64,000 nt of DNA from Fulvivirga sp. (GTDB lineage: Bacteria; Bacteroidota; Bacteroidia; Cytophagales; Cyclobacteriaceae), in NCBI GenBank assembly GCA_028280565.1, contig JANQLQ010000006.1:1-64000 (forward strand). The letters are read 5' to 3'. Position 1 is the first letter of the stretch, and every line of letters begins with the position of its first letter. Of the stretch, positions 26,856 through 64,000 are shown one piece after another. The notes under the pieces are model-generated. The model ran no database searches. It was not told where the DNA came from and worked only from the letters and a program-made list of their open reading frames with translations. The position numbers were made by a program, and so were the translations under genes.

Positions 26856-28289
26856 TCAATCATATCCCAGTCTTACCCTAGCCAACCCCGGATCAAAACT
26901 ATCCCGTCGAAAGGTATGAGCTTCAGTGTTAAAAACATGCTGATCAAAATCGAAGACATCTTTCCCGGCAAAGGCGATATAGAAATATTTCAATGTCTCG
27001 GCAAAAAAGTAGGTAGCCAGGTAGTCATTCTCCTCCATGGTACGCACGTCTTTGATCGAGTGATACGCTACTTCGTTTTTACAACATTCATTGATATCCT
27101 TCCAGTATTTTTTGATCATTTCTATGTATTCATCCTTCCGAGTGACCTGGTGCAGGTAGTAAGCAGATTCGATGATTTCAGGATTCAGCTCGGAATTACC
27201 ATATTCCACCGTATCGGCACCGTAATGGTACCGGGTGGGTAGAAGCCCATACTTATCCCATAGCCAATCCCAAGTCTGCTGGTTCTTTTCTGCGGCTTCA
27301 AAATCACCACTTACCACCTGGATTGCCGGGAAAAAAGCATCGTAAAGTGACACTGACCTTTTGAGTATTTCGCCGGTGTGCATGTCTACAATGGTATAAT
27401 AGGTATGGCCATTGTGCTCATCCAATAGGTATTCGTTGATCTTTGTGATGCTATAATCCCATATTTCTTTGATCTCCCGGTCGGGAAATATCATCCAGCT
27501 TTTGTACATGTACTCATAGTAAGCATCCACTCCCGCCTGTAGATGATGCCATGGCGTACCTACCCATTCACCGGTCTCCACGTTGATATGTTCGCCGGGG
27601 AGGCCTATTTCAGACCTTCTTTCGAAAATGGCCTTGGTGGCTCTTTTGGCAGCTTGATAATACTTGGGATCCTCGGTGTAATAGCTGAGGATCCCAAATT
27701 CAAATAAGTAGGTAGCTGCCTGGGCTACATTGATCACGGTACCATCACCTTCTCCTTTGTTGCCTGCTGTTTCACCGGTACGCAGGTTGATCGAATGGTA
27801 GGGAATACCTGTTGGAGAATCAAAGGCAGGCAAGATCCTGTCTCCAAAATCACGTACTTTTTCAAGAATATCCGGGTTCCGGGTATACTCATACATGGCC
27901 AGCAGTCCACCCAAAATACGGATATTGACCTCAAAAACCTGTACATAAACGTCTTTATCCCAATTTTCGGCTAGGGCATACGCTTCAATTTCCTTGGCTT
28001 CTTCATCGAAGCCCATTACTTTCAAAGTACTGTAGGCGTCATAGGGAGATATGCCCAGTGTCTCTTCATACCAGTTATAGCCCTTTTTGGAAAGAGGCAA
28101 CAACACATCGTATCCCCAGGCATATTGTTTGTAGCCCTGCCACGAACGAAGCATTTCGTCTTTGACCTGCTGTGCTAATAATGATAAATTGTCATTACTC
28201 GTCTCTCCCTTTTTTTGCTCCTGTTTACTGGTAGGAGCCTGGCAAGAACTAAAATAAAGGAGGGTTACCAGTGTAAGAATGTATTTCAT
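26856..28289 (-). CDS. GH47 alpha-1,2-mannosidase, lipoprotein
   Basis: GH47 enzymes cleave terminal alpha-1,2-mannose from Man9-type N-glycans. A lipobox (LLYFSSC, Cys16) anchors it. Diagnostic motifs are YAWGYDVLLPLS, VFEVNIRILGGLLAMYEYT (about 119-136), GDRILPAFDSPTGIPYHSINL, ATYLFEFGILSYYT, SELNPEIIESAYYL, FFAETLKYFYIAF and the C-terminal NTEAH (454-458), whose threonine binds calcium in known members. Length 477 fits the catalytic domain alone. The ATG at 28289 is preferred; the longer frame uses TTG. It is the last gene of the eleven-gene minus-strand operon, 91 bp after cutC. Eukaryotic members act in the ER and Golgi; bacterial ones are rare. Confidence 0.92.
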   Translation of the reverse strand: MKYILTLVTLLYFSSCQAPTSKQEQKKGETSNDNLSLLAQQVKDEMLRSWQGYKQYAWGYDVLLPLSKKGYNWYEETLGISPYDAYSTLKVMGFDEEAKEIEAYALAENWDKDVYVQVFEVNIRILGGLLAMYEYTRNPDILEKVRDFGDRILPAFDSPTGIPYHSINLRTGETAGNKGEGDGTVINVAQAATYLFEFGILSYYTEDPKYYQAAKRATKAIFERRSEIGLPGEHINVETGEWVGTPWHHLQAGVDAYYEYMYKSWMIFPDREIKEIWDYSITKINEYLLDEHNGHTYYTIVDMHTGEILKRSVSLYDAFFPAIQVVSGDFEAAEKNQQTWDWLWDKYGLLPTRYHYGADTVEYGNSELNPEIIESAYYLHQVTRKDEYIEMIKKYWKDINECCKNEVAYHSIKDVRTMEENDYLATYFFAETLKYFYIAFAGKDVFDFDQHVFNTEAHTFRRDSFDPGLARVRLGYD

Positions 28290-28380
28290 ATTGTTGTTTT
28301 TAGCCAAAAGCTTTAAGGCACTTAAGTTCTACTGTATTTCACTGTCCTTAAGGTCACAAATTGTGCAAATCACGTTACGT

Positions 28381-29013
28381 TCAACCTGCACCCCCAAGCT
28401 CACCAACGATCCGCTTCCCATGGTACGCCTTCGCCCCTATCAACTCATGTACTAAGACTAAATTTTCATTGGTCACTTTACCACAGGCAATCACCTCGAT
28501 CTCGTCTTCCGCCATGATCACCATCGCTTTAAGGCATTCCTTCCCACCGATAGCGGTAAGTTCCTTCCCCGAGGTAAGCACTGCATCGATCGTGCCTAGT
28601 GCTTCCAGGTGCTTTAACTCCTCCACGGGATCATGGCAAGTGTCTATGGCTTTATGGACGGTCACTTTTAAGGGGGAGGCATGCTTGGCAAGTTCTCCTA
28701 TTATACTCAAATCCAGTGTTTTTGCCCTTGTGCATGCGCCAAAGACCACTCCCTCCGCCCCTACCGATTTGCAAAATTCGATAGCTATTTTCATTTCCTC
28801 GATCTCACCTTGCGAGTATACAAAATCACCGGCGCGAGGCCGGATCATTACCCTAATGGGAATATCCAACTGCTCCACGGCACGCTTGATGAGCTCCCGG
28901 GAAGGTGTAAGCCCGTCTTGGGCCAGGTCAGCACATAATTCAATGCGGTCAGCTCCTCGCTTTTGGGCTTCTCGGCACTGTTCAAAGGTTTCAACGCAAG
29001 CTTCTAGGATCAT
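28381..29013 (-). CDS. cutC: CutC-family TIM-barrel protein
   Basis: The start MILEACVETFEQC is the classical CutC N-terminus, followed by GADRIELCADLAQDGLTPS, RVMIRPRAGDFVYSQGE, GAEGVVFGACT, VTVHKAIDTCHDP and VLTSGKE. CutC was named for a copper-tolerance phenotype in E. coli, but its biochemical role is unsettled. Here the ATG at 29013 lies one base beyond the stop of the GH92 gene, so the two are translationally linked, and it sits between two mannosidases. No signal peptide, so it is cytoplasmic. A role in sugar rather than copper metabolism is inference. A longer frame to 29070 overlaps the GH92 and is not needed. Confidence 0.92.
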   Translation of the reverse strand: MILEACVETFEQCREAQKRGADRIELCADLAQDGLTPSRELIKRAVEQLDIPIRVMIRPRAGDFVYSQGEIEEMKIAIEFCKSVGAEGVVFGACTRAKTLDLSIIGELAKHASPLKVTVHKAIDTCHDPVEELKHLEALGTIDAVLTSGKELTAIGGKECLKAMVIMAEDEIEVIACGKVTNENLVLVHELIGAKAYHGKRIVGELGGAG

Positions 29014-29014
29014 T

Positions 29015-31216
29015 TTAGTCTTGGGTACTTGTTTTTGGTTCGCTGGACATTTCAAAAATGAGTTCTCCACCCGCCATTACCTGGTCATGAGTGATAAAAT
29101 GTTCTTCCAATGGAAGGCCATTCAAGAATACTGATCTTACATAAATATTTTCTCTTGCCTGGCCTTTTGCCTCAATCCTGAATTTCTTGCCTCCAGGCAG
29201 GTGTATTATAGCTTCTTCTACTTCGGGGCTTCCTAAAATGTATTTGCCCTCCGCGGGGTTGACGGGGTAAAAACCCAAGGCACTGAATAGATACCAGGCA
29301 GATAGCTGGCCACAGTCCTCGTTGCCGCAAAGTCCGCCGGGAGTAGTGTCGTAAAGCTCATCCATGACCTGGCGTACCCTTTGTTGCGTTTTTGAAGGTG
29401 TATTTACAAATGAATACAGGTACGGCACATGATGGCTGGGCTCATTGCCATGCACGTATTGGCCAATGTAACCGGAGATCCATTCCGGTGCCGTGTCTCC
29501 TGGCGGTTGTAAAGTAAACATTTGATCGAGCTTAGTTTCAAAGGTTTTGACACCTCCTGTTTTGGCAATAAGCTCTTCCATATCTTGCGGCACATACCAA
29601 TAGTATTGCCAGGCATTGGCTTCGCAATAGTCTTCCGGGTGGTAGGCTAATGGATCAAATCCCGGTTTAAATGCACCCGCCCCTGACCTAGCACGGAAAA
29701 AACCTGTGCCCGGGTCAAAATGGTTTTTGTAATTGTGGGTGCGATCCATAAAGTATTGGTAATCTTCCTCCTTGCCAAGCATTTTAGCTACTTGGGCGAT
29801 GCACCAATCGTCAAAGGCGTATTCCAGTGTGAGAGAAACATTCCAACCTCCATGCTCATAAGGAACATACCCCAGCGCTTTGTATTCCTTTAATCCAAAA
29901 TCGTCTTGCATGGCGCTGGTCTTCATGGCAGCATACGCTCGTTCCGTATCTATGCCCGGGGTATGTTTTAAAATGGCGTCAGCGATCACAGCTACAGAAT
30001 GATAACCTATCATCATATCCGTTTCATTGCCCCACATATTCCACACCGGTAAAAGACCATACTCATCGTAAAAGTCCAGCATGGAATTCACCAGGTCGGG
30101 CACCCTGTCCGGCTGGGTTATGGTAAGCCAAGGGTGTAATGCCCGGTACGTATCCCAAAGTGAGTAGAGGGTATACCTGGGATGGCCTGTAGAAGTCCGT
30201 ATCTTACCATCTGCCCCTCGATATTCTCCATTAACGTCGGAATAGATCGTAGGCGCCAGCATACTGTGATACATGGCCGTGTAAAACTGGACTAGGTTAT
30301 CCCGCGAGGTCTTTACTTCTACCTTACGTAACGCTTCCTCCCAAACCTGACCTGCTTGTCGTTTCACCCCTTCAAAATCAAACCCATCCTGTTCGGATGA
30401 CAGGTTCAGCATAGCGTTTTCAATGCTCACGGAGCTTAAGCCTGTTTTTATCATTACCTCCTGCGTATTAAAGGACATCTCTGCCAGCAGATCCAAGCCT
30501 CTTAAACTGTCGGCGTCGGATGCTACTCCGCCATCACTCAATGTAAACTGGAAGGGGGCCGAAAAGATCGTGGCAAAATATACCTGTTGGTTACTTGCCC
30601 AGCCAGTTGATTTCCTGTAACCGACAAGCGTGGTGTCATTTATGATGCGGATGAAACTGCCAGTCACCTTATCCCAATTCCGGCTATAGCCCAGGTGCAG
30701 CCTGACCTTGGGCTTGTCCCCGTCAAACGTATAACGTTGTAAGCCCGTATGTGTAGTAGCGGTCAGCTCGACATTCACCTGGTAATCGGGTAGGTACACC
30801 TGGTAATAGCCGGGGCGGGCCTGCTCCCCGGCATGACTAAAAACGGAGTATACCGTTTCCCTCGGGTTAATATCATCTAGTTTGGCTTGTTTGAGTGTCC
30901 CGGAAACCGGCATAAAAGAAATATCGTAAAGATCTCCCGCCCCGGTCCCGGACAGGTGCAGGTGGCTGAAACCGGCAATGACCGTGTCAGGATAGAAATA
31001 CCCCGAGATCCAATCCCAACCATTGCGGCCATTGTCTGGGCTAAGTTGCACCATCCCATACGGCACGGTAGCCCCGGGGTAGGTTTTGCCTTTTCCATCG
31101 GTGCCAATGAAGGGGTCTACATAATCTAGGAACGATTCCTTAGACGGCACTTTTTCATCTACTGCACATGCCCACAGCACATAACCCAGCAAGCCGATCC
31201 AAGTGTATTTTTTCAT
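29015..31216 (-). CDS. GH92 exo-alpha-mannosidase, lipoprotein (first of three in operon)
   Basis: GH92 are calcium-dependent inverting exo-alpha-mannosidases. Cys17 in YVLWAC is the lipobox. The N-terminal beta-sandwich shows DYVDPFIGTDGKGKTYPG, GMVQLSPDNGRNGWDWISGY and GFSHLHLSGTGAGDL; the (alpha/alpha)6 barrel includes YSLWDTYRALHPW, and GNEDCGQLSAW near residue 631 carries the catalytic base aspartate region. The motifs closely match the GH92 at 39385. Its ATG (31216) overlaps the TGA of the GH85 gene by four bases, so translation is coupled. Linkage preference (1,2, 1,3, 1,4 or 1,6) cannot be read by eye. Confidence 0.95.
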   Translation of the reverse strand: MKKYTWIGLLGYVLWACAVDEKVPSKESFLDYVDPFIGTDGKGKTYPGATVPYGMVQLSPDNGRNGWDWISGYFYPDTVIAGFSHLHLSGTGAGDLYDISFMPVSGTLKQAKLDDINPRETVYSVFSHAGEQARPGYYQVYLPDYQVNVELTATTHTGLQRYTFDGDKPKVRLHLGYSRNWDKVTGSFIRIINDTTLVGYRKSTGWASNQQVYFATIFSAPFQFTLSDGGVASDADSLRGLDLLAEMSFNTQEVMIKTGLSSVSIENAMLNLSSEQDGFDFEGVKRQAGQVWEEALRKVEVKTSRDNLVQFYTAMYHSMLAPTIYSDVNGEYRGADGKIRTSTGHPRYTLYSLWDTYRALHPWLTITQPDRVPDLVNSMLDFYDEYGLLPVWNMWGNETDMMIGYHSVAVIADAILKHTPGIDTERAYAAMKTSAMQDDFGLKEYKALGYVPYEHGGWNVSLTLEYAFDDWCIAQVAKMLGKEEDYQYFMDRTHNYKNHFDPGTGFFRARSGAGAFKPGFDPLAYHPEDYCEANAWQYYWYVPQDMEELIAKTGGVKTFETKLDQMFTLQPPGDTAPEWISGYIGQYVHGNEPSHHVPYLYSFVNTPSKTQQRVRQVMDELYDTTPGGLCGNEDCGQLSAWYLFSALGFYPVNPAEGKYILGSPEVEEAIIHLPGGKKFRIEAKGQARENIYVRSVFLNGLPLEEHFITHDQVMAGGELIFEMSSEPKTSTQD

Positions 31217-33141
31217 TTCCAATATAATTTTTGCCCTGCAGGTTTACTCTGCGTACCATCAGCCGCTACGGATATGACTTGGAGGGTAGTATACTGACGT
31301 CCGCTGTCCTTTTCTACCATCGGGAGGTAATAATATTCGCCCCGGGCCTGCCCAAGCCAAGTTTTGTTGCCGTTTGCGTTTAGCTTGTAAATGTTGTGGC
31401 AAACGCTCTTTTCATCTCCCTTTATATGCAGGTAAAGCTCAGCTTGATCTCCCTTGATGAAGGACTCAAAGGCAATCACAGGTTTAGAAATCGCTTCCGG
31501 GCGCTTATTGGTGATACCTAATTTGCCAAGATAAAGGCGATCTCCTTTATTCCCAGATACTTTGATCCCTATTTTTGTGATCTTTTTGTTCTTGATCTTC
31601 CCCACTAGCTCCCTATACACATTCCATCCTGGCCCAGGATTCACAGGGTAATCTTCCGTGGTGCCATCTGAAAAAGCCAGCGATAATTTAAGGGCAGCGC
31701 CGCCTTTCACCGCCAATTCGAACTTTTCGCCTCCTTGCAGGGCCAAGTTTGTTTTGTACAAGGGTACGTAAACCTCCTCCTGTGCAGATCGCAAGTCGAT
31801 CCTCAAGGATGATCCCCCGGTGTAGCTTTCATTGAAATCGAAGGTAACTCCTACTTTAGTGGTATCTACATTCCACTGCCAGGTAGGTAAAAGATCTTGG
31901 TTGCTAAGGTTATGCCATTCCTTACCGGAAAGCTGCCGGCCATTTTCATTGTAAAATCTACCGAGACCATAATTAAAATGCGTTACAAAAGGCAAGGTAC
32001 TTATGACAGAACGTGCTGGGAAATACTTTGTGAACCCTTTCCAGTCCCTAGCGGCCCTACCCTTTGCTTCTTTCGCGAACACCTTTCCGTTCCAAAATTT
32101 CTGTTCTTCCTTGTAAACCGTTTCGGGCTGTTTGTCTTTGGCAAGATCAAAGGTAGCGTTGGGCCAGTACAGGCTGATGGAGGTGGAATAGGGCTCCTCA
32201 TGCTGGTATAAGTTTTCCCAAGGCACATACGACCTATACCCCCGCTGTTGCACATCGATACCGGCATAAAGCTGCCATGGACTTCGGCTTAATTCCAGCG
32301 CCTTCTTGTGGGAATCTTCCAATTGGGTAGCGCTCCAGCCGAAATCAAGGAACAGGATATCAGACATCTTTTGATCTCCTTTTTGAAAATACATCTCGTT
32401 GTGATGGTTGAGTTCCTCCTGCCAGATAACACGACCATCTTCAATCATAGCGTCATACCACATGACCTGGAACTTTCCGTTCGATTTTCGCTGGTAGTAG
32501 GCTAAGAAGTCTTGCATATGATCAGCGTCCGCTTTGCCTAGCCCAGTGGTCTCTTGATTAATGAACCAGCCGTCAAACCCATAGTACTCGGCAACTTCCA
32601 AAAGTTTATCTGCCACGGGGAAATCACCTGTTTCGTTTTTTTGAAGCATTTCTCTTACCCATTCCTTTTTGCCTCCATACACCACGGGTGGGAAAAATAC
32701 CGTACCCAATATTTTCACCCCATTGCGATGTGCAGCATCGATCCAAGGCACGGCCGGGGTAACGATGATCCCCTCGGCGGAAGATCCGCCCCATTGTACA
32801 AAGTAGTCGATGTACTGCCAATAGGGAAAAGCATACTGCTGTACCGTTTGGAAGCCCTGTGAAGGGTGATTGGAGGTAGGGTGCGACGCTACTAACGAGG
32901 TGATTGACGGTTCCGTACTCAGCGCAGGGTCAATTTGCGTGGCAGCGTCTATAAACCTTCCTGCTAATGGAGTATGGCTTACATTGAACTTGGCATGTGG
33001 GTCATTATCCTTATGCCACTTTAACAATTCGTCCACAAACCAGTAAGACGAATAAGGTTGATGCTCACCGTAATCGGTTTGTGCACACACCGCATCCAAA
33101 GCAAGAAAAAAAAGTAGGGTAAAAATGCTCCTCAAATTCAT
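31213..33141 (-). CDS. GH85 endo-beta-N-acetylglucosaminidase (ENGase), secreted
   Basis: ENGases cut between the two core GlcNAc residues of N-glycans, leaving one GlcNAc on asparagine. The signal peptide ends near VCAQ. The TIM barrel shows YWQYIDYFVQWGG, VKILGTVFFPP and GFDGWFINQE, where Asn195 and Glu197 match the substrate-assisted pair (oxazoline-stabilising Asn, acid/base Glu) of Endo-D and Endo-A. Later VMWYDAMIEDGRVIWQEELN is also typical. After about 430 there are beta-sandwich domains, possibly carbohydrate binding. No lipobox, so it is periplasmic or exported. Downstream the ATGA overlap couples it to the GH92. Confidence 0.93.
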   Translation of the reverse strand: MNLRSIFTLLFFLALDAVCAQTDYGEHQPYSSYWFVDELLKWHKDNDPHAKFNVSHTPLAGRFIDAATQIDPALSTEPSITSLVASHPTSNHPSQGFQTVQQYAFPYWQYIDYFVQWGGSSAEGIIVTPAVPWIDAAHRNGVKILGTVFFPPVVYGGKKEWVREMLQKNETGDFPVADKLLEVAEYYGFDGWFINQETTGLGKADADHMQDFLAYYQRKSNGKFQVMWYDAMIEDGRVIWQEELNHHNEMYFQKGDQKMSDILFLDFGWSATQLEDSHKKALELSRSPWQLYAGIDVQQRGYRSYVPWENLYQHEEPYSTSISLYWPNATFDLAKDKQPETVYKEEQKFWNGKVFAKEAKGRAARDWKGFTKYFPARSVISTLPFVTHFNYGLGRFYNENGRQLSGKEWHNLSNQDLLPTWQWNVDTTKVGVTFDFNESYTGGSSLRIDLRSAQEEVYVPLYKTNLALQGGEKFELAVKGGAALKLSLAFSDGTTEDYPVNPGPGWNVYRELVGKIKNKKITKIGIKVSGNKGDRLYLGKLGITNKRPEAISKPVIAFESFIKGDQAELYLHIKGDEKSVCHNIYKLNANGNKTWLGQARGEYYYLPMVEKDSGRQYTTLQVISVAADGTQSKPAGQKLYWK

Positions 33142-35770: not shown

Positions 35771-35837
35771 GGATATATCTTTCTTTTTACAATTGTTCAT
35801 CTTTACGGCTTCCTGGAATAAAAATCAGATCTATTTT

Positions 35838-39379: not shown

Positions 39380-39384
39380 ATTTT

Positions 39385-49412: not shown

Positions 49413-49417
49413 TCTTT

Positions 49418-50971: not shown

Positions 50972-51075
50972 ATGCGTGATTTTGAGTGTCAAATTATCAT
51001 AACATGATCATCGAAAAGGCGTATCCTGTCCTGGCGGACATTCACTAAGCTCATAATTGATGGGCTCGTTCCTAG

Positions 51076-54363: not shown

Positions 54364-54460
54364 GCCGAGAAATTAAAAAATGGTACTAAGAAATTGACTC
54401 ATTTGCATTTGCATCGGGGATGGGGATAATAACCCAAATCCAGGGGAACTCTAAATAAAA

Positions 54461-54492
54461 ACAAAAAGAGGCACTTAAAAAAGTGACCTCTC
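54461..54492 (-). terminator. Intrinsic terminator downstream of susD
   Basis: Read on the minus strand, a stem of about ten pairs with one bulge (AGAGGTCACTT and AAGTGCCTCT) is followed by TTTTTGTTTTT. It starts 24 bp after the susD stop and separates susCD from the FG-GAP genes, so those are read through at reduced level or have their own promoter. Confidence 0.75.
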
Positions 54493-54516
54493 TTTTCAAC
54501 CTATGAAGAAGCAAAG

Positions 54517-56271
54517 CTATTTATTTGGATCGTAATATAACGGTACGTTCTCCAGTTCAGACCCACCTAGAAATTCCACGGCCTGTTCATATCTTTCAGC
54601 ATTATTCACGGCTTCTGCATTAGGATACCTGATCCTTCTTGGGTATGCGTTCGGATTAGCCGCATCCAGGTCCCCTTGATTATAAACTGCCGGGTTAGGG
54701 TCAGCAAAAGGTATTAGGAATGGGTATTGCGTTTTTCTAAAATCCGCAAAAGCTTCCCACGAGAAATCAGGAAAACATCCAATATACTTTTGTGTAATTA
54801 TCTTAGCCAGTTTGCTATCCGCGGGCAGGCCATTAGGCAAAGTCTCCCCGGAGTCAAAATCAAAATTAACGGTTAGTCCATACACATTTTGATCTGTGGA
54901 GCTAATGTAAGTATCGATTAAAGAGGGATCGACCTCGTGCCAAAGCATAGATTGCCTAATACCTTCTTCATAAAACGACTTCGCATCTCCTTGGGCATTC
55001 CAACCTTTTAAAGCCATTTCAGCCCTTAAAAAAAGAACTTCGTGGTATTTTGCTACTTCGTAATCTCTTTCCGAGTTCGCATAATTATCACCGAGTGAAG
55101 CATAGTAAAAAGTGTTGTATTCCTCTTTCCCAAGGTCTACAGGATTTATACCTGCCGGGTTACCCGTCCATTGGTTATCAACATTTACCCTTTGATCGTT
55201 ACTTAATGTAGCCGAATCCTCAACGGAGAAGCCTAAGTTATCAAAATAAAGTGGCCCCCTGGGATCTACTTTAGAAGGCACTCCTTGCCTGAACCGGCTC
55301 CTGTTAGGATCCAAGGAACTCTCGATGCTACCTACAATCGGTACCCCGGGATCATCTATGATATATGTCTCTCCATCCGGTGCCTCCGGGAAATCAATAC
55401 CACCAAGCCCGATGAGGGTGTTTTCAAAAGAGCGGCTCATATTGATCGGGGCTCCCCAACCAAATTGATAGGTTGCATAACCATTTTGGCTACCCCATCC
55501 AAATTCAGGTCCTAAATCTATCAAGCCGTTATCTTCGACAGATTCTATGACCCCTGCCGCTACTGCCGCCTCTGCGTGGCTCCGGGCTAGTTCCGGGTCT
55601 ACCTCGGAGAGCCTCATGGCTATTTTCAGCCGTAAAGACTGGGCGAATTTTTTCCATTTTTCAATATCTGATCTAAACAAGCGATCCTGCTCGGGTGGCA
55701 TGGTCGGGTTATCGTTCGATAACGCCGCAGCAGCCTCCTCCAGTTCTTTTAGCATATCTTGGTAAATCACATCCTCATCATCGTAATTCGGATTATTACC
55801 GGTTAGATCCGCCATTTCAAAATACGGTATGGGGCCGTGAACACCTACCAACCTTTGAAAGATGTAAACTTTCATGATCCGGGCAATATGCTCATCATTT
55901 GTAACCTCACCCGTCGACCTTATAGTAGCAAGCGCCCGGTTCAGATTTTCAATATCACCCACTGACTTATTCCACCAAGTAGTGGTTCCCCCGTTGTTCG
56001 AGGTCCCGTCTATTCTCCCGTAATTGGCAAAGTACTGCACCCACATATCCAACTGGATAAACTGTATGTTGAAAACGTTGGACAGGTCGCCCATTGGACC
56101 CCTGGAAATCACAGGTGCCACGAAAAAATTGGGTACAACATTTTCCTGTCGCGTCTGGGTAACATCCGTATTGATTTCTTCAAAATCACTGGTACATCCT
56201 ACCAATACGGCCATAAGTAGCAGCATTACTACTATGGATCTATTTATTATGACGTGTATTGTCTTTTTCAT
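54517..56271 (-). CDS. susD: SusD/RagB-family surface glycan-binding lipoprotein
   Basis: SusD proteins cap the SusC channel and bind incoming glycan. Lipobox AVLVGC (Cys26), followed by DFEEINTDVTQTRQENV, marks the SusD-like (RagB, SusD_2-type) N-terminus. Helical TPR-like units with IARIMKVYIFQRLVGVHGPIPYFE and WKKFAQSLRLKIAMRLSEVDP (about 190-215) are characteristic; the C-terminal region has YHEVLFLRAEMALKGWN. It follows susC by 18 bp. The glycan is predicted to be a mannose-rich N-glycan from the flanking enzymes; sequence alone does not show it. Confidence 0.95.
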   Translation of the reverse strand: MKKTIHVIINRSIVVMLLLMAVLVGCTSDFEEINTDVTQTRQENVVPNFFVAPVISRGPMGDLSNVFNIQFIQLDMWVQYFANYGRIDGTSNNGGTTTWWNKSVGDIENLNRALATIRSTGEVTNDEHIARIMKVYIFQRLVGVHGPIPYFEMADLTGNNPNYDDEDVIYQDMLKELEEAAAALSNDNPTMPPEQDRLFRSDIEKWKKFAQSLRLKIAMRLSEVDPELARSHAEAAVAAGVIESVEDNGLIDLGPEFGWGSQNGYATYQFGWGAPINMSRSFENTLIGLGGIDFPEAPDGETYIIDDPGVPIVGSIESSLDPNRSRFRQGVPSKVDPRGPLYFDNLGFSVEDSATLSNDQRVNVDNQWTGNPAGINPVDLGKEEYNTFYYASLGDNYANSERDYEVAKYHEVLFLRAEMALKGWNAQGDAKSFYEEGIRQSMLWHEVDPSLIDTYISSTDQNVYGLTVNFDFDSGETLPNGLPADSKLAKIITQKYIGCFPDFSWEAFADFRKTQYPFLIPFADPNPAVYNQGDLDAANPNAYPRRIRYPNAEAVNNAERYEQAVEFLGGSELENVPLYYDPNK

Positions 56272-56289
56272 CCTCTAATCGTTGAACTA

Positions 56290-59200
56290 CTAAAATTGTA
56301 CATTAAGATTAAATCCAAAACTCCGGGTAGTTGGGTAAGGAGCTAATTCAAATGCCGCAGCATTGTTCGTGGCCGTGAGCGACTCTGGATCTATGCCCGG
56401 AATATCACTATCAATCAACCATAGGTTCCTGCCCACAGCTGAAATTCGCACACTATTAATAAAAGTATCTTGCAACCACCGCCTAGGTAACGAATATCCC
56501 AAGGTCACCTCCCTAAGCTTTACAAAACTGGCTTTATACATAAACTGGGAGGTCACCCCGGCCGCTACATCCCAGTACTGCTGTGCATTTATTTCCGTTT
56601 CATTTTCTCCTGTTACGTTCCCTTCTTCATCGACGGTGACTCCATCCACTACAAGTCCACCTTCTCTAAAAGGCAACGTTCCTTCTGCATTTCCATTGGC
56701 ATGCATCGTTGCCAAACTCCCGGAATATATATCTCCTCCTTTACGAATGTCTATTAAGAAACTAAGGTAAACGCCTTTGTATGTGAACCGGTTGTTGATA
56801 CCTAATTGCCAATCCGGCAAAATATTACCTAAAGGCTTGTTCTGGTCTTCTTGGTCCACTCGAGGGGTTCCATCGTCGTTGACGATGAGTCTTCCGTCTT
56901 CCGTATATGCAAAATCAGTACCTGATATAACGCCAAATTCAGAAACCACAGAGTCTTTTCTTGCCACAACATTGACCAACCCAAAGCTATTCAGGCCAAT
57001 CACCGTATTATCAAATTGGGATCCGATATCGACCAACTCATTCGTGTTTCTTGTAAAATTACCTGTCAAGGTCCATTCAAAACTGTTGGGGAGTTGAATA
57101 GGAATAGCCGAAAGCTGTAACTCAATACCCCTATTATCCATTCGCCCGATGTTAACCGTTTGTCTCCCTGAGCCCACCCTATTGTTTACAGGGACGTCTA
57201 TGATCTGGTTGACTGTCCTGGTGTGATAGTAGGTAGCATCTAACGACAGCCTATTTAAAAACAAGCTTATATCAAAACCGAACTCCAAGCTTTTTGACTT
57301 TTCAGGAACAAGATTCGGGCTCCTGAGTGCGTCCGGGTTGTTCGCCCTAATAATTCCCCCGTCAAATTCACCAATTTCAAACGTATTGATCAGCTGGCTA
57401 GGTAAAAGAAAGTTACCGGCTTCCGCATAGCCTCCTCTTAATTTGAGGTAGCTGATGGTAGAAGGGAAATTGGCGCCGATATCATCGAATAATTCACTGA
57501 CAATGAGGGAGGTAGATACTCCAGGGTATGTAATATCCGAGTTATCAGGATCTTGTGTGGATGACCAATCCGTCCGAGTAGTTAGGTCGAGAAAGAGGTA
57601 ATCTTTATACGCCAAATTGGCAAAGGCGTATACCGAGTTAATACGAATCCGAGTTAAGCGATTGTTACCTCGAAAGCGATCCTCCGTGCTCGGAGTATTT
57701 AGACTTATCAGCCCCCTAGGATCTTCAGTAAACTCTGCTGTCCTCCCTCCAAGAAATGACTCCTCTCCATCCCGTCTATTAGCACCCACGGAAAAATTGA
57801 CATTTAGGTCACCAAACGATTTATTGGCGGTCAACAAGACATCAGCATTTGCTTCTGAAATTGTCCTGGTACTAATTACAAAATCAGAATCATGACCAGG
57901 GCTATTGGTAGGTGTGCCCATTCCCCAAGGATTCAATCTTTCTTCTTGTCTTACCTGGTAGTCTAGACCATGTCTCAACTGGACCTTTAACCAATCCGTA
58001 ATGTTATATTCCACCCTTGCCAACGTGATGTACCTATTGGTCTCATCTTGGTTATAACCTTCATTTACAAGCCAGTGCGGGTTTGCGGAAGTAGTAAAGG
58101 CCGTTGTATCCCATAGGTTCTGGAATCCATTAGGTCGCCTGAAATTACGCTGATCTTCCATACCAATGGACCTGGGCTGGGTGATATAATTAAAGAATAC
58201 GTTACGCAAAGAGCCTGATAACCAAGGGCGGTTAAAGGCCTCTTCGTTGGTATAGGAAAGGCGCCCTTCTACGTTTAATCTATCCGAGAATTTATGTTGT
58301 GCCTTAATACTGGCGAGATTTCTCTCCAGCGAAGTGTTCGGTATAAGACCTTCGTTATCGTACCGGGTGTAGGATACCCTGAAGGTGGTCTTGTCATTCC
58401 CGCCATCCGCAGCTACACTATACGTCTGCGTTACGCCTGTCTGTAAAAAGTCTCTTAAATCATCCTCTTCGATCGTGAGTGGGGCCTCGCCGAAATTTGT
58501 CCAGTAATTATCTACGATCTGCCCTTCCGCACGTGGACCCCAGCTCCCATTGGCACCGTAAAGATAATCCCCATTGTTTCCTTGGCCGTATTCGTGCTGC
58601 ATGTTATCATAAAGCTTGAGCGGTGTATCGAACATCACATTGGCATTGAAAGATACACCTATACCTTTACCAGTCTTACCGGATTTTGTAGTGATCAATA
58701 CCACACCATTTAAACCCCGGTTTCCGTAAAGGGCCGCAGCCGAAGGTCCCTTCAGTACGGTCATACTCTCGATGTCATCAGGGTTGACCTGGTTGATACC
58801 TACCCCACCGTCAAAAGCTCCAGTAGACGAGTTATCCGCAACACCGGCTCCTTCAAAACGGTTCACAATAGGAACACCATCTATTACGTAGAGAGGTTCA
58901 TTATTTCTTGTAATGGATTTAAAGCCCCTGATATATATCACGGTAGAACCGGTGGGGCCGTTCCCTGTATTATTGATCTGTACCCCGCTGATCTTTCCCG
59001 CGAGGTTATTCAGAACATTAGGTTCACGAGCTTCTACTAATTCTTCTCCCTCCAAACTTTGCACGGCAAATCCGACAGCTTTTTTGTCCCTCTCAATACC
59101 CAAAGCTGTAACTACAATCTCCCCGAGCTGTGTAATATCACTTTCTAGTGATACGTCGATGGTCGTCCTACTATCAACAACCTCTTTAACTGTCTTAAAC

Positions 59201-59421
59201 CCTACAAAGCTAAAATTCAGGACATCGCCTGGATCTGCCTGGATTTGATAGTTTCCATCAACATCCGTAACCGTTCCAGTAGTAGTCCCTTCAATGTAGA
59301 CGCTTACCCCGGGTAAGCCTTCCCCTGTGCCAAAATCAATTACAGTCCCAGTAATTCTCACTTGGGCGCTCAAGTTTAGACACAAAGAGAAGCAGATGAA
59401 TGCAAGTACATGTTTTATCAT
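56290..59421 (-). CDS. susC: SusC/RagA-family TonB-dependent glycan transporter
   Basis: An outer-membrane transporter of 1043 residues. The order is: signal peptide (to about 19, LSAQ), CarboxypepD_reg-like domain (GTVIDFGTGEGLPGVSVYIE, 22 to about 95), TonB-box-like region, plug (GFAVQSLEGEEL, LAGKISGVQINNTGNG, SITRNNEPLYVIDGVP) and a long barrel ending in aromatic FNLNVQF. The motifs YIRGF and YVIDGVPI are SusC hallmarks. It forms the transcription unit with susD. About 340 bp upstream separates it from the divergent deoR-type gene and contains phased motifs that may be its operator. Confidence 0.97.
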   Translation of the reverse strand: MIKHVLAFICFSLCLNLSAQVRITGTVIDFGTGEGLPGVSVYIEGTTTGTVTDVDGNYQIQADPGDVLNFSFVGFKTVKEVVDSRTTIDVSLESDITQLGEIVVTALGIERDKKAVGFAVQSLEGEELVEAREPNVLNNLAGKISGVQINNTGNGPTGSTVIYIRGFKSITRNNEPLYVIDGVPIVNRFEGAGVADNSSTGAFDGGVGINQVNPDDIESMTVLKGPSAAALYGNRGLNGVVLITTKSGKTGKGIGVSFNANVMFDTPLKLYDNMQHEYGQGNNGDYLYGANGSWGPRAEGQIVDNYWTNFGEAPLTIEEDDLRDFLQTGVTQTYSVAADGGNDKTTFRVSYTRYDNEGLIPNTSLERNLASIKAQHKFSDRLNVEGRLSYTNEEAFNRPWLSGSLRNVFFNYITQPRSIGMEDQRNFRRPNGFQNLWDTTAFTTSANPHWLVNEGYNQDETNRYITLARVEYNITDWLKVQLRHGLDYQVRQEERLNPWGMGTPTNSPGHDSDFVISTRTISEANADVLLTANKSFGDLNVNFSVGANRRDGEESFLGGRTAEFTEDPRGLISLNTPSTEDRFRGNNRLTRIRINSVYAFANLAYKDYLFLDLTTRTDWSSTQDPDNSDITYPGVSTSLIVSELFDDIGANFPSTISYLKLRGGYAEAGNFLLPSQLINTFEIGEFDGGIIRANNPDALRSPNLVPEKSKSLEFGFDISLFLNRLSLDATYYHTRTVNQIIDVPVNNRVGSGRQTVNIGRMDNRGIELQLSAIPIQLPNSFEWTLTGNFTRNTNELVDIGSQFDNTVIGLNSFGLVNVVARKDSVVSEFGVISGTDFAYTEDGRLIVNDDGTPRVDQEDQNKPLGNILPDWQLGINNRFTYKGVYLSFLIDIRKGGDIYSGSLATMHANGNAEGTLPFREGGLVVDGVTVDEEGNVTGENETEINAQQYWDVAAGVTSQFMYKASFVKLREVTLGYSLPRRWLQDTFINSVRISAVGRNLWLIDSDIPGIDPESLTATNNAAAFELAPYPTTRSFGFNLNVQF

Positions 59422-59758
59422 ATTAAATATTTTTATAAAGGCTAATGTTAAGGTTTTACAAATTCAATTCAAAGAGTTTCGTGCAAAAAAATTCTGTTTT
59501 ATGCACGAAATAGATAATTTACATGCACAAATACCGCAAAATGGGGATAAACAGGTGTTACAACAGGTAAAATCGATTATATAGTTTAGAAACCGGCATT
59601 CTAATGGCAGTTAGAGCCTGAGCATAACTGCCACATTTCTAAAGACAATCGTCTAAGTATTCTAATTATTGCATTATTTTGCGGATATCTTAGACCGTAG
59701 GCCCTGCGCCTGGAGGCACAGGGAATTTCTAATGTAAATGTGAATAAACGCTTGCCCT
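59422..59758. promoter_or_regulatory. Divergent promoter region between susC and the DeoR-type regulator
   Basis: The 337-bp AT-rich gap holds the motif cluster at 59477-59540. The remainder, including GTAGGCCCTGCGCC/GGAGGCACAGGG near 59696-59722, has no gene. Promoters for susC (minus) and the regulator (plus) must lie here. Confidence 0.6.
59477..59540. promoter_or_regulatory. Candidate operator: TTTCGTGCA inverted and phased copies
   Basis: TTTCGTGCA (59477-59485) and its exact inverse TGCACGAAA (59502-59510) form a 9-bp palindrome with a 16-bp spacer. A third site, CATGCACAAATA (59522), and CCGCAAAA (59534) follow. The G of 'GCA' is at 59483, 59503, 59525 and 59536, nearly in steps of two helical turns. 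It lies 56-120 bp upstream of the susC start. Binding by the DeoR-family protein is inference. Confidence 0.55.
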
Positions 59759-60508
59759 ATGCTAAAAGTAGAGCGACAAAATATGATACTACAGGAGATT
59801 CGTACACATAATAAGGTACATTCTTCCAAATTAAGCCAACTATTGAATGTTTCTGAAGATACCATTCGAAGGGATTTGCGGGAATTAGCAGGAAACGGGC
59901 ACATCAAAAAAGTACACGGTGGGGCCATGGCTAATCCTAATTCTCCTGGAACCGTCAGAAAACAGAAAATACCTAATCAACCTGAACGAGAGGTAATCTC
60001 AAGAAAAGCAGCCTCTTTATTACAAAATGGTCAAGTTATACTCATGGAGGGCAACTCTACGAACTTCTTGCTCATCGATCACATTCCAAAGGAGATGACA
60101 CTCACCATTTTTACGAATTCTCTACAATTAGCCGCCAAATTGTTCAACTACCAGCATATTGAGACTATTTTTTTGGGAGGGAAATTATCAAATAAATACC
60201 CCATGACTTTAGGCATAGATGTTATTAACGCCCTAGGTGAAGTGCATGCGGATCTGTTTTTTGCCGAAGTCGACAGTATTCATGAAGATATCGGCATCAC
60301 GGACGGGGACCGGGAAAGCGCTTATACTAAAAAAGCCATGTTTAAGTCCGCTTCACAGGTCGTGGTCATGTGTCTTTCCAACGATATCGGCACAATACAG
60401 CCCTTTAAAGTAGAAAGTGTGGATATGATAAATATACTCATCACGGAAGCGGGTCCGGAGCATCATCAATTAAATAGGTTCAGTAACAAAGGAGTGCAAA
60501 TACTATGA
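59759..60508 (+). CDS. DeoR-family transcriptional regulator
   Basis: The 249-residue protein has the family's N-terminal winged helix: ERQNMILQEIRTHNKVHSSKL, then SQLLNVSEDTIRRDLRELAGNGHIKKVHGGA (about 5-60). The C-terminal DeoRC sensor domain, which binds phosphorylated sugars, includes GQVILMEGNSTNFLLIDHIP, TIFTNSLQLAAKL, IFLGGKLSNKYPMTLG and the ITDGDRESAYTKKAMF loop. Its stop overlaps the ATG of the downstream GH92 (ATGA). It is likely the local regulator; a mannose-phosphate-type signal fits the pathway but is not shown. Confidence 0.95.
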   Translation: MLKVERQNMILQEIRTHNKVHSSKLSQLLNVSEDTIRRDLRELAGNGHIKKVHGGAMANPNSPGTVRKQKIPNQPEREVISRKAASLLQNGQVILMEGNSTNFLLIDHIPKEMTLTIFTNSLQLAAKLFNYQHIETIFLGGKLSNKYPMTLGIDVINALGEVHADLFFAEVDSIHEDIGITDGDRESAYTKKAMFKSASQVVVMCLSNDIGTIQPFKVESVDMINILITEAGPEHHQLNRFSNKGVQIL

Positions 60509-62763
60509 CAACCCGGTTTTTATTCCTTTTCGTATTTGTGATCCATCATACGCTACAAGGTCAATCATTGACCTCATACGTCAATCCGTTCATTGGAACT
60601 TCTAATTATGGCGCCACGCACCCGGGGTCAAATTACCCGCATGCTATGGCTTCGGTTACTCCTTTTAATGTTGCTCATCGAAAAGGGGCAGAAAACAAGT
60701 TCGAGAAAGACAGCGAATGGCATTCCAGGCCTTATGTCTACGAGAACAAATACCTTACAGGATTCAGCCACCTGAACTTAAGCGGCGTAGGATGCCCGGA
60801 GGCAGGAGTAATTCTCCTGATGCCAACGACCGGTCCGTTGGAGTTCGATGCCGCAGAATACGGCAGTACTTATTCCCAGGAAAAAGCTTCTCCTGGGTAC
60901 TATAGCAGCCGACTGGATAAATACCAGGTCTTAACAGAAATGACAAGTACGAAAAGGTCGGGCATTAGTCGCTATACTTTCCCGGCGGGCAGGTCTAATA
61001 TCTTACTCAACTTAGGGCTAGGACTCACCAATGAAACCGGGGCCAGTGTAAGGATCATTTCGCCTACGGAAGTGGAGGGGTCGAAAACCATAGGTACGTT
61101 CTGCTATAACCCGGAAGATGTGCGCCCGGTATACTTTGTCGCCCAATTGAGCAAACCGGCAAAATCTTTCGGGACCTACAAGAAAATGCCCAAGTATAAA
61201 GCGGTAGAAGCCGATTGGGTAAAATACGACGATGCCTACAAACCGTATGAGAACTACCGGCATGAAATGGCTGGCGAAGACATCGGTGCCTATTTTTCCT
61301 TTGATACCCAAGAAAATGACGTAATAGAAGTGAAAGTGGGAATTTCCTTTGTAAGCATAGCAAATGCACGCGAGAATTTGCGCCGGGAACAACCATCGTT
61401 CGAATTTGAAGACATTCGCAAAAAGAACGAAGCGAAGTGGGACGAACTATTAGGTAGAATACAAGTAGAAACAAAAGATGAAACCGCCAAAACACTCTTT
61501 TACACGGCCTTATACCATACCCTCCTTCATCCCAACCTGGTCAACGATGTGAACGGTGACTACCCGGTGATGGGAGGTGGTCCTGAAATCAAAAATTCAG
61601 ATAGAGACCGTTACACTGTATTTTCTTTATGGGATACTTATCGTAACGTTCATCCTCTCTTGAGCCTGGTCTACCCAGAACTTCAATCTCAAATGGTCAA
61701 TACCATGGTAGACATGTACAAGGAGAACCATTGGCTGCCTAAATGGGAATTATTCGGGATGGAAACCAACGTCATGGTAGGAGACCCGGCATCGCCTGTC
61801 ATTACAGATACCTACCTGAGAGGCATACGGGATTTCGATGTAGAGGCTGCTTATGAGGCTATGAAAAAAGCTTCGGATACCCCGGGCGAGGAAAATCTTT
61901 TGCGGCCGGGAATTGACACATATAATACACTAGGATATGTGGCGGAAGACACTTTGGATACCTGGGGCGGAAGCGTATCGTCCTCCTTAGAATACTATAT
62001 TGCCGACTGGAACTTGGCACAGTTGGCCAAGGCGTTGGGCAACTCCACTGATCACAAAAAGTACCTGCAAAAATCCTTAGGCTACCGGCACTTATTTGAT
62101 AAGTCAACCGGCATGTTGAGGCCACGCTTTCAAGATGGTTCGTGGCTTACTCCCTTTAACCCGGAGGCCGGTAAAAACTTCGAGGCTGTAATAGGATATG
62201 TAGAGGGGAATGCTTGGCAGTATCGATTTTATGTTCCACATGACATAAATGGGCTTATCAAATTACTGGGAGGACGAAAAAAGTTCGGGTCACAATTACA
62301 ACTACTCTTTGATAGTGATAATTATGATATGGCAAACGAGCCGGACATAACCTACCCTTACCTGTTCAACTACTTACCCGGGCAAGAATACAAAAGCCAA
62401 CAAAAGGTAAGAGAGCTTATAAACCAATATTATTCGAACACCCCCGGGGGGATACCGGGCAACGATGACACGGGAACCCTCTCCACCTGGTTGCTTTTTA
62501 GTATGTTAGGGATATATCCTATTTGTCCCGGTGATATGAACTACGCTATAGTGTCCCCCTATTTTGATCAAGTGGTCATTACCCTGGATGAGCGTTATTA
62601 CACCGGGAAGTCGTTGATCATAAAAACCAACAAAAGCGCCCAGGATGCCAACTACATCCATGCCATACGCAAAGATGGAAAGGAGCTAAATTCATTTTTT
62701 ATCCATCATAAAGACTTGGTAAGCGGGGGAACACTGGAATTTGACTTGGAGACAACGCATTAA
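60505..62763 (+). CDS. GH92 exo-alpha-mannosidase, secreted (third subtype)
   Basis: The signal peptide ends at LQGQ; there is no lipobox, unlike the other three. Motifs are SYVNPFIGTSNYGATHPGSN, ENKYLTGFSHLNLSGVGCPE, YFSFDTQENDVIEVKVGIS, FSLWDTYRNVHPLLSLVYP, EGNAWQYRFYVPHD and GNDDTGTLSTWLLFSMLGIYP near 652. GNDDTG replaces GNEDCG or GDEDNG of the others and HPGSNYPHAM replaces YPGATVPYGM. This suggests another linkage specificity or a phosphate-bearing glycan. It starts four bases inside the regulator's end. Confidence 0.95.
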   Translation: MTTRFLFLFVFVIHHTLQGQSLTSYVNPFIGTSNYGATHPGSNYPHAMASVTPFNVAHRKGAENKFEKDSEWHSRPYVYENKYLTGFSHLNLSGVGCPEAGVILLMPTTGPLEFDAAEYGSTYSQEKASPGYYSSRLDKYQVLTEMTSTKRSGISRYTFPAGRSNILLNLGLGLTNETGASVRIISPTEVEGSKTIGTFCYNPEDVRPVYFVAQLSKPAKSFGTYKKMPKYKAVEADWVKYDDAYKPYENYRHEMAGEDIGAYFSFDTQENDVIEVKVGISFVSIANARENLRREQPSFEFEDIRKKNEAKWDELLGRIQVETKDETAKTLFYTALYHTLLHPNLVNDVNGDYPVMGGGPEIKNSDRDRYTVFSLWDTYRNVHPLLSLVYPELQSQMVNTMVDMYKENHWLPKWELFGMETNVMVGDPASPVITDTYLRGIRDFDVEAAYEAMKKASDTPGEENLLRPGIDTYNTLGYVAEDTLDTWGGSVSSSLEYYIADWNLAQLAKALGNSTDHKKYLQKSLGYRHLFDKSTGMLRPRFQDGSWLTPFNPEAGKNFEAVIGYVEGNAWQYRFYVPHDINGLIKLLGGRKKFGSQLQLLFDSDNYDMANEPDITYPYLFNYLPGQEYKSQQKVRELINQYYSNTPGGIPGNDDTGTLSTWLLFSMLGIYPICPGDMNYAIVSPYFDQVVITLDERYYTGKSLIIKTNKSAQDANYIHAIRKDGKELNSFFIHHKDLVSGGTLEFDLETTH

Positions 62764-62867
62764 ATGAAAATCCTGGTGATATTCATTGCTATAGGTCCTG
62801 TGAGAGGCTAATCGCCGTGTATTTGACCAAATCATGACTCGATAGATCCATAAATACAGCCTAATAT

Positions 62868-64000
62868 ATGATCAATAAAAAACCTTACATAGAAATACCC
62901 GGAAGTGATAAGGCCTGCTGGGAAGGCTGGAGTCACATCGGTGATGAGTTAAAGCGGCATATTCAGTCCATTTCCAAAAAGAAGGTGGTGATTGCCATAG
63001 AGTCTAATCTCGGGACGTATTTAGACTCCAATTTACAAGCTTTAAAAGACTGCATAGTCCCCAATGTAACCTGCCGGGCCAAAGACATATACAAAGATCC
63101 CAACATGATCATGCAATTGGCCAACAATAATGCTGGAAATGATCATTATGCCTCTACATCTACCCACAACATTGAAGATTATTTCGATAAGCAAAAGTTA
63201 GACGGCCTGCGAAACAACATTGATTTCATAGACGAGGGAGTAGTATTGATCCATGGTGTGGGTTCTTCTAAAATATGGGATCCTGATATCCTGATCTATT
63301 CCGATATCTCAAGATGGGAGCAGGTGCAACGGTTTCGCCGGGGCGAAGTATCCAATATCGGGATCAATAATGCCGGTGTCTCCTACCAAGATCAACAACT
63401 TTGGAGTTACTTTATCGATTGGCGTATATGTGATAAGATCAAAAGGAAAGCCATTATACACTGTGACTATTTCCTGGAAACCAATAATTGGAAAAAACCT
63501 AAGCTTGCTACTGGTGAGATCATCCGGAAAGGGTACGAGATGACCTATGCGCAGCCTTTTTTTAATGCGCCGTTCTTCGATCCCGAGTTATGGGAAGACA
63601 TTGTACATTACGAGGGAGAGAACAATGATTTCAACTGGGTCTTTAACTGTAGCATGGATGAGAACAATATCTTGTTGAAGCTGGGTGATCACCTGTTTGA
63701 GTCGCCCGCCATCAACTTAATATATTTCAATCCTACCCAACTGATGGGAGATGCTGTTTATAAAAAATACGGCCATGAGCTGCCTATACGTTATAATTTC
63801 ATCGATACCCTGGATGAAAAAGACATTAACGTTTATTTACAGCCCAGTGAACAATTCTTCAAAGAAAATTATGGCATTTTCCACAAGCAACATGAGATAT
63901 ACTATATCATGAATGCCGAAAAAAATGCCTCTATAGGTATCGGGCTACAAGAAGGGGTCTCAAAAGAGTACTTCGAAGAAACAGCGCTGGCGGCGAGGAC
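62868..64000 (+). CDS. Mannose-6-phosphate-isomerase-like protein, partial (cut by window edge)
   Basis: The frame is open for 377 codons from ATG 62868 to the window end. The first part (about 1-270) includes VVIAIESNLGTYLDSNL, GVVLIHGVGSSKIWDPDILIY and EVSNIGINNAGVSY; I assign no function. From about 300 (ESPAINLIYFNPTQLMGDAVY, DINVYLQPSEQFFKENYG, HKQHEIYYIMNAEKNASIGIGL) it resembles class I phosphomannose isomerase of large Bacteroidota type. The usual Gln-x-His metal pair of the VQVHP motif is not conserved (YLQPSE), so activity is uncertain. If active it would convert mannose-6-phosphate to fructose-6-phosphate. It lies 104 bp after GH92. Confidence 0.75.
   Translation, partial: MINKKPYIEIPGSDKACWEGWSHIGDELKRHIQSISKKKVVIAIESNLGTYLDSNLQALKDCIVPNVTCRAKDIYKDPNMIMQLANNNAGNDHYASTSTHNIEDYFDKQKLDGLRNNIDFIDEGVVLIHGVGSSKIWDPDILIYSDISRWEQVQRFRRGEVSNIGINNAGVSYQDQQLWSYFIDWRICDKIKRKAIIHCDYFLETNNWKKPKLATGEIIRKGYEMTYAQPFFNAPFFDPELWEDIVHYEGENNDFNWVFNCSMDENNILLKLGDHLFESPAINLIYFNPTQLMGDAVYKKYGHELPIRYNFIDTLDEKDINVYLQPSEQFFKENYGIFHKQHEIYYIMNAEKNASIGIGLQEGVSKEYFEETALAAR

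Follow-up and report, generated by a model that had tools for sequence, protein, structure and literature searches.

Gene content and layout of the locus

We analysed a stretch of 64,000 nucleotides from a Fulvivirga sp. genome, hereafter the window (positions 1 to 64,000 of contig JANQLQ010000006.1, which is 69,884 bp long, in assembly GCA_028280565.1 of 9.05 Mb and 337 contigs), and found that it carries a 37.7 kb locus of putative N-glycan degradation genes. The locus reaches from 26856 to 64556, slightly past the end of the window. An earlier reading of the bare sequence (the original prediction) had given its span as 26856-64000, and the genes do lie where they were placed, except that the last of them, resembling mannose-6-phosphate isomerase (PMI), runs on outside the window. 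The left part is a minus-strand run of eleven genes (26856-47032), ordered GH47, CutC, GH92, GH85, GH3, PNGase F, GH92, GH92, sodium/solute symporter (SSS), GH2 and glycosylasparaginase (AGA), where GH denotes a glycoside hydrolase family. As predicted, this run is tightly packed: judged by the coordinates of its open reading frames (ORFs), the widest gap is 73 bp, the GH2 and SSS genes overlap by 4 bp, and the PNGase F and adjacent GH92 genes also overlap. A middle block (47367-59421) consists of a plus-strand ASPIC/FG-GAP gene followed, all on the minus strand, by an FG-GAP gene with a haem motif, a second ASPIC/FG-GAP gene, SusD and SusC, and a right block (59759-64556, plus strand) holds DeoR, GH92 and PMI-like genes. 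Because the next gene downstream encodes an L,D-transpeptidase, the locus probably ends after the PMI-like gene; on the other flank, the nearest genes encode SnoaL-like and cNMP-binding proteins and DNA polymerase III alpha.

A Pfam scan of all 38 window ORFs of at least 150 residues placed every named family where it had been predicted and far above the curated cut-offs, with PMI requiring another route (below), and the domain searches assigned none of the genes to a different family. Two enzymes are predicted, by homology, to release N-glycans. The PNGase F (35838..37037, minus strand) matches both its N and C domains (PF09112/PF09113) at about 183 bits each, and its matches to PDB sequences (402 bits to 4qhb, 392 to 3ks7 and 217 to PNGF-II) mark it as the classical kind, while the GH85 endo-beta-N-acetylglucosaminidase (31213..33141, minus; PF03644 276 bits, plus GH85_C) is closest to EndoA (2vtf, 415 bits), with EndoD at 228 bits. 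The AGA (46052..47032, minus; PF01112, Asparaginase_2, 216 bits) matches 3ljq at 367 bits and 1p4k at 366, against 139 for the best isoaspartyl peptidase, which identifies it as a glycosylasparaginase. Alpha-mannosidases are represented by a GH47 alpha-1,2-mannosidase (26856..28307, minus; PF01532 324 bits; PDB 4ayo 200 bits) and by four GH92 enzymes, here called a (29015..31222, minus; PF07971 593 bits), b (37034..39379, minus; 588 bits), c (39385..41661, minus; 640 bits) and d (60505..62763, plus; 550 bits, and 752 bits to TIGR01180). The GH2 beta-mannosidase (43516..46050, minus) has mannosidase Ig domains and matches the beta-mannosidase structures 7op6/2je8 at 771 bits. The GH3 enzyme (33188..35800, minus), which carries a PA14 insert, is closest to beta-xylosidases: its nearest PDB structure is one, and it scores 695 bits with the NCBIfam Xyl3A beta-xylosidase equivalog, which requires 1250. 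Last, the SSS symporter (41729..43519, minus; PF00474, SSF, 112 bits) is encoded by a gene whose start overlaps the end of GH2. Judged from homology, these activities would cover all the linkages of a high-mannose core, with alpha-mannose assigned to GH47 and GH92, beta-mannose to GH2, GlcNAc-GlcNAc to GH85 and GlcNAc-Asn to AGA.

Simple rules for N-terminal signals suggest that the enzymes are distributed over several compartments. Lipobox-like N-termini are found in GH47 (FSSC), in GH92 a (LWAC, by a loose rule), b and c, in SusD and in one ASPIC protein, hydrophobic signal-like N-termini in GH85, GH3, PNGase F and the fourth GH92, and a Tat-like motif (RRRFM) in AGA. By the same rules GH2, CutC, DeoR and PMI have no export signal; the GH2 beta-mannosidase, which lacks a hydrophobic N-terminus, is probably cytosolic, and the overlap of its gene with that of the symporter would fit the import of a mannose-containing disaccharide.

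In the middle block, the plus-strand FG-GAP/ASPIC-UnbV protein (47367..49412) matches Por_Secre_tail, a domain for sorting in secretion, below threshold (24.6 bits, cut-off 27). The minus-strand FG-GAP protein (49418..50992) begins with a hydrophobic stretch and contains a CxxCH haem c motif that does not vary among three aligned sequences; it is followed by the lipoprotein-like ASPIC/UnbV FG-GAP protein (51076..54363, minus), the SusD-like lipoprotein (54517..56271, minus; PF12741 235 bits) and the SusC-like TonB-dependent transporter (56290..59421, minus). The original prediction had left the FG-GAP and ASPIC proteins unmentioned. In two further genomes from the family of the source organism, the haem-motif protein has a homologue that adjoins a CutC-AGA pair, with ASPIC protein and SusC-like matches nearby. 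The FG-GAP proteins may be surface receptors for glycoproteins, which is a guess; we know of no role for such proteins with N-glycans. The locus resembles a polysaccharide utilization locus (PUL) in that the SusC/SusD pair adjoins carbohydrate-active enzyme genes and a regulator is linked to them, namely the DeoR-family protein (59759..60508, plus; PF00455, PF08220). No ECF sigma/anti-sigma or hybrid two-component gene was found by Pfam among the scanned ORFs of the locus.

The PMI-like gene (62868..64000 in the window and on to 64556, plus) encodes a divergent and longer protein of 562 aa, which has no Pfam or NCBIfam match of its own and no PDB match at E values up to 10. When 149 genomes were searched, however, its C-terminal half aligned with proteins some 330 residues long, and since one of these, from the same genome, passes the TIGR00218 manA model (144.3 bits, cut-off 116.2), the label given in the original prediction is right. 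A full-length relative in another genome (G107) adjoins a ROK sugar kinase. The first 280 residues of the PMI-like protein, its N-terminal half (L002, 868-1710), match no family and are common to relatives of 600-625 aa.

A 15-base word is common to the two intergenic regions with divergent genes, one between AGA and ASPIC and the other between SusC and DeoR; a shared word as long or longer arose in 3 of 2000 random first-order pairs. A 13-mer pattern, TTTCRTGCAWAAA, has nine exact sites in the 9.05 Mb genome, and four of the nine fall in these two regions: site 1, TTTCATGCAAAAA (47235..47247, plus), site 2, TTTCGTGCAAAAA (47297..47309, plus), site 3, TTTCGTGCAAAAA (59477..59489, plus), and site 4, TTTCGTGCATAAA (59498..59510, minus). 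Four of the other five are inside ORFs and one lies between genes on contig C125, whereas the reversed control pattern has no exact site genome-wide. The 9-base core of the pattern occurs five times in the window against 1.3 expected. Three matches to a -7 box pattern, in or at the intergenic regions, were not used. Two points weigh against reading these sites as operators: with two mismatches allowed, the pattern shows no enrichment in the window (14 sites against 11.4 expected), and the count is partly circular, since it was made in the very regions that had yielded the pattern, although the scarcity of the pattern elsewhere is not. We propose that the adjacent DeoR protein reads sites 1-4. 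Taken together, the gene content, packing and shared operator-like sites make a co-regulated N-glycan degradation locus well supported, and we consider it probable that the whole is a single PUL-type locus directed at N-glycoproteins of the high-mannose kind.

The target glycan and the rarity of the enzyme set

The original prediction held that the absence of certain enzymes points to high-mannose or plant-type glycans rather than complex mammalian ones. No GH20, GH18, GH29, GH33 or beta-galactosidase gene was detected by Pfam among the 38 window ORFs, and none of the sialidase, beta-galactosidase, GH20 and fucosidase activities that would mark a complex mammalian N-glycan as the target was found among them. 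The high-mannose half of the claim fits the EndoA-type GH85, the GH47, the four GH92 enzymes and the absence of exo-enzymes for complex antennae; the plant-type half fared less well, since the GH3 evidence is below cut-off and the PNGase is of the classical kind. A high-mannose substrate is therefore the favoured reading from the predicted gene content. The locus would still be aimed at N-glycans of plants, algae or invertebrates that carry a core beta1,2-xylose if the GH3 enzyme were the xylosidase that its closest model and structure suggest, and this is possible but doubtful: the score is about half of the curated cut-off, no GH29 for a core alpha1,3-fucose is found among the 38 ORFs, the PNGase is closer to the classical type than to PNGF-II, and a review notes, in the excerpted text, that neither a GH18 nor a GH85 had yet been reported for plant N-glycans (PMC10154615). 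The N-glycan locus itself is real, and from its predicted activities it is probably complete for glycans of the high-mannose type.

The combination of GH85 with PNGase F was thought to be uncommon, and it proved so. We searched 295 genomes of the class for both families and 241 of the order for GH85. A strong GH85 match was found in one of the class genomes, the source genome itself; four others match at only 20-24 bits. In the order sample, GH85 reaches at least 226 bits in 4/241 genomes, the other three being from one genus, and in these three no PNGase F, AGA or GH92 match was found in the surrounding 40-60 kb, although GH3- and SusC-like matches occur there in one (G518). The idea that the GH85 locus is conserved among close kin was rejected, as no genome of the same family was matched among the 241. 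In the class, C-domain matches to PNGase F reach at least 150 bits in 8 of the 295 genomes, or 152 when weaker matches are included. The source genome also has a second, divergent PNGase F C-domain gene on contig C180 (locus L091; 49.8 bits), with a mannosidase-like GH2 match (44% identical) some 10 kb off.

A locus in another genome of the class (G065) resembles the present one in having PNGase F, SusC, GH3, GH92, AGA and an SSS symporter in about 30 kb. It differs in containing a GH20 gene, in a genome without a GH85 match, and in that the 78 kb we read there yielded no match to GH47, CutC or a beta-mannosidase. By analogy, GH85 may here make the chitobiose cut that GH20 makes there. A search for the hexosaminidase that had seemed to be missing found none among the window ORFs, and a GH20-like match of 276 bits elsewhere in the genome, on contig C307. 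Since GH85 cuts the chitobiose core and the related locus contains GH20 without GH85, a missing hexosaminidase need not be a gap, and the notion of one was rejected: GH85 and AGA would cover the GlcNAc bonds. As a whole, the locus offers a compact source of N-glycan tools, with an EndoA-like GH85, a PNGase F and an AGA, all apparently controlled by one regulator.

CutC and its genomic company

The eleventh minus-strand gene, which the original prediction had left without a name, belongs to the CutC family (28381..29070, minus; PF03932 182.9 bits, cut-off 23.3; 144 bits to human CutC, 3iwp). It has no signal peptide, and translation most plausibly starts from the ATG at 29013 (residue 20), immediately after the stop codon of GH92 a. 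With the E. coli-type equivalog PRK11572 it reaches 140.8 bits, below half of the required 311. An AlphaFold2 model based on a 29-row alignment is an eight-stranded alpha/beta barrel (pLDDT 93.4), for which the top Foldseek match is human CutC (3iwp; TM 0.85, rmsd 1.0, 40% identity). After it come many further barrels, of which several bind phosphate: MJ1099 with PRPP, PRAI, HisA, ManNAc-6-P epimerase and DERA. Nine columns of the family are invariant (E23, E44, G53, V109, G111, H139, D143, L165 and H217), the polar ones being Glu, His or Asp, and columns conserved at 90% or more include R77, T166, S167, G168 and C46. In TIM barrels the active site is formed by the strand ends, and in the model E23, E44, R77, G111, H139, T166-G168 and H217 all lie in or directly behind barrel strands. 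The structural findings as a whole would fit a sugar or sugar-phosphate substrate. The window protein thus shares the fold and the conserved strand-end residues with the CutC family (PF03932, human 3iwp), and differs from it in sitting in an N-glycan operon, in an altered strand-7 loop and in scoring far under the PRK11572 cut-off. A second, canonical CutC of the same genome (221 bits) lies on contig C307 (L051), where a pair of sulfatase genes, of which one carries a C-terminal SGSH domain, stands about 0.66 kb before it and a GH20-like match lies about 4 kb away.

CutC exceeded the cut-off in 48 of 149 class genomes, with 50 matches. For 47 of these we read the surrounding DNA, in stretches no longer than 20 kb; the window copy and two pieces of one interrupted gene were left out. 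Within 1.5 kb of CutC, AGA was found in 17 of the 47 stretches, mannosidase-like GH2 in 22, GH20 in 8 and GH92 in 2. AGA or mannosidase-like GH2 lay within this distance of 30/47 CutC genes and in 0/32 control stretches from the same contigs (Fisher p 5e-10); all neighbour counts in the 32 controls were zero, also within 9.5 kb, as they were in three further stretches (L127-L129), which lie beside or close to CutC loci and were left out of the 32. The linkage was examined as a possible artefact of close kinship, and this explanation was rejected: counted by genus, 20/35 had at least one linked CutC copy against 0/32 controls (p 6e-8), and on a tree built by a quick method from the window copy and 124 of the 127 loci counted below (three being dropped for length) the AGA/GH2 state needs at least 12 changes. 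The tree is only a rough guide, because the method was quick and several branches are long, that of the window copy among them. On it, one class member (L041) groups closely with named Parabacteroides copies. Pfam found GH2_N2, a domain also present in the window enzyme, in all nine GH2 neighbours checked and both mannosidase Ig domains in just 3/9, and for this reason some are called only mannosidase-like.

In addition, named genomes were scanned with five canonical CutC queries and the best 80 loci, mostly from Bacteroidales, were examined. Five of these have AGA within 1.5 kb, in Pedobacter, Mucilaginibacter, two Chitinophaga and one Acidobacteriales (L211), eight more have GH20 within about 0.4 kb, and 9/80 have GH29 within three genes. 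Loci from outside Bacteroidota are few among the best 80; the Acidobacteriales one has AGA beside CutC, and neither AGA nor GH2 was found at CutC in loci of Acidobacteria (L200), Chloroflexi (L205), Latescibacterota (L208) or Anaerobiospirillum (L194). When both sets were combined (47 class and 80 named, 127 loci) and neighbours counted within three genes, AGA was in the same gene run as CutC in 21/23 loci, GH2 in 20/21 and GH20 in 15/20; GH92 was represented by 13 genes in 10 loci (same run in 5) and GH29 fucosidase by 11 genes in 10 loci (same run in 8). For the GH29 and GH20 clusters, and for a transglutaminase-like one described below, the family name comes from Pfam results on one to three members each. 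Several other genes were seen in these neighbourhoods: a ROK sugar kinase (the tested member, from L213) in the AGA-CutC run of L067, L068, L210 and L213; a clustered gene near CutC in L180, L183, L186 and L193, whose L186 member has a phosphodiester glycosidase (NAGPA) domain; and, in L208, a DUF4962/heparinase II/III-like gene preceding CutC.

The link of CutC with these enzymes is surprising, statistically strong in the class sample and uneven across lineages, and CutC may work in the cytosol as an enzyme that breaks down the glycan core or hexosamines. We suggest more broadly, as a tentative but serious possibility, that the widespread CutC family, human CUTC included, which usually bears the label of copper homeostasis, consists of cytosolic TIM-barrel enzymes for the catabolism of glycoprotein glycans (hexosamines), which in Bacteroidota work beside glycosylasparaginase and beta-mannosidase and perhaps act on 1-amino-GlcNAc or Man-GlcNAc from the N-glycan core, with the window copy as a specialised second copy. 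A number of observations weigh against such a role. The window AGA and GH2 genes are about 14 kb from CutC, which sits between GH92 and GH47, although in the same gene run; neither neighbour is within 1.5 kb of 17 of the 47 class copies, and only 5/80 of the best named canonical loci have one. Moreover, the commonest neighbour over the 127 loci is a transglutaminase-like gene, present in 28 (27 from the named set) and in the same gene run in 10, and AGA also occurs without CutC, as in 5/5 AGA stretches fetched away from it. As for the protein, the window copy lacks the consensus glycine triplet of strand 7, and C46 is nearly invariant in the family. The transglutaminase-like neighbours of canonical CutC (L170 and 27 further loci) are on the opposite strand in 17 of the 28, and the tested member has a transglutaminase core.

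These same facts leave some room for CutC as a copper-handling or moonlighting passenger, brought beside its neighbours by chance or by shared horizontal transfer, as the curated family name, the nearly invariant cysteine and the frequency of other contexts (17/47 copies unlinked, 75/80 without AGA or GH2) would suggest. We regard this as unlikely, given that none of the 32 controls is linked, that linkage recurs in 20/35 genera with at least 12 state changes on the rough tree, and that every invariant polar position is a Glu, His or Asp. The copper role in E. coli is also doubted in the literature, one paper ascribing the copper phenotype wholly to a small RNA that the cutC locus also produces. 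Among the matches listed in an open-access literature search, judged by titles and the beginnings of abstracts, none linked CutC with N-glycan catabolism except a predicted interaction network of Xanthomonas, in which, according to the excerpted text, CutC, nixI and an asparaginase are predicted partners of VirK (PMC5700972). The locus thus points to CutC, a family without a settled function that is found in bacteria and humans, as a companion of glycan enzymes, often glycosylasparaginase, mannosidase-like GH2 and GH20 in the sampled class, and GH20 and GH29 elsewhere; this company makes its function testable with few glycan-core substrates.

A proposed pathway and its relation to known systems

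The predicted activities and locations can be arranged into a pathway. First, the GH47 and GH92 lipoproteins would trim alpha-mannose, GH85 would free the glycan by cutting between the two core GlcNAc residues and PNGase F by cutting at Asn, and SusCD, perhaps with the FG-GAP proteins, would bind and import glycans or glycopeptides. In the periplasm, the GH92 enzymes would take off the remaining alpha-mannose and GH3 a beta-linked cap, perhaps xylose, while the Tat-exported glycosylasparaginase would split the GlcNAc-Asn left by GH85 after proteolysis. The SSS symporter would then import mannose and/or Man-beta1,4-GlcNAc, the latter to be cleaved by the cytosolic GH2 beta-mannosidase, and PMI would feed mannose into glycolysis after its phosphorylation, for which no kinase was found in the locus. 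CutC would act in the cytosol as a TIM-barrel enzyme whose substrate is either a glycan-core product or derived from a hexosamine. Finally, DeoR, probably sensing a sugar phosphate, would control both divergent promoter regions via the TTTCRTGCAWAAA sites.

Four GH92 enzymes and a GH47 would also suit fungal or yeast mannan or mannoprotein as the target, with N-glycan release a side function, but this seems quite improbable, since no GH76- or GH99-type gene is present among the 38 scanned ORFs and the part of the glycan that PNGase F, GH85 and AGA attack is the core linked to protein. Weaker still is the view that two separate systems adjoin here, the minus-strand enzyme operon being one and the SusCD/FG-GAP/DeoR block the other, as the two divergent intergenic regions and the lack of any N-glycan role of FG-GAP proteins known to us might imply, for both regions have the same operator-like sites, a GH92 gene directly follows DeoR, and SusC, FG-GAP/ASPIC, AGA and CutC occur together in two other genomes (G095 and G127).

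As a single N-glycan pathway, the locus follows the logic of lysosomal N-glycan catabolism, with AGA, cleavage of the core and alpha- and beta-mannosidases, the lysosome using chitobiase where the locus has GH85. Unlike the lysosome, which is one compartment, it would combine exported and lipoprotein-like enzymes with transporters. Among bacteria, it is a variant of N-glycan degradation loci already known. To our knowledge, the high-mannose PUL of Bacteroides thetaiotaomicron contains no PNGase F, AGA, GH47 or CutC. That PUL is similar, in the excerpted text of the review, in uniting an endo-glycosidase and several GH92 enzymes in one operon for sequential action, and differs in that its endo-glycosidase is a GH18 (BT3987) where the present one is a GH85 (PMC10154615). 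The plant N-glycan loci of gut Bacteroides, with a group 2 PNGase, have PNGase, GH92, GH3 and SusC/D neighbours in common with it, whereas, as excerpted, they contain GH29 and GH130 and in B. massiliensis are scattered across several loci; the main text of that paper mentions neither glycosylasparaginase nor GH47 nor CutC by name (PMC9522356). The Xanthomonas nix cluster, from another phylum, is alike in its clustered N-glycan enzymes and in an asparaginase reported in the neighbourhood, a likeness taken from the excerpted description (PMC5700972).

Outside the locus, about 11 kb before its start, the window contains a YdjC-family gene and a further GH3 gene (12625-15991), which are mutually divergent and were not counted as part of it.

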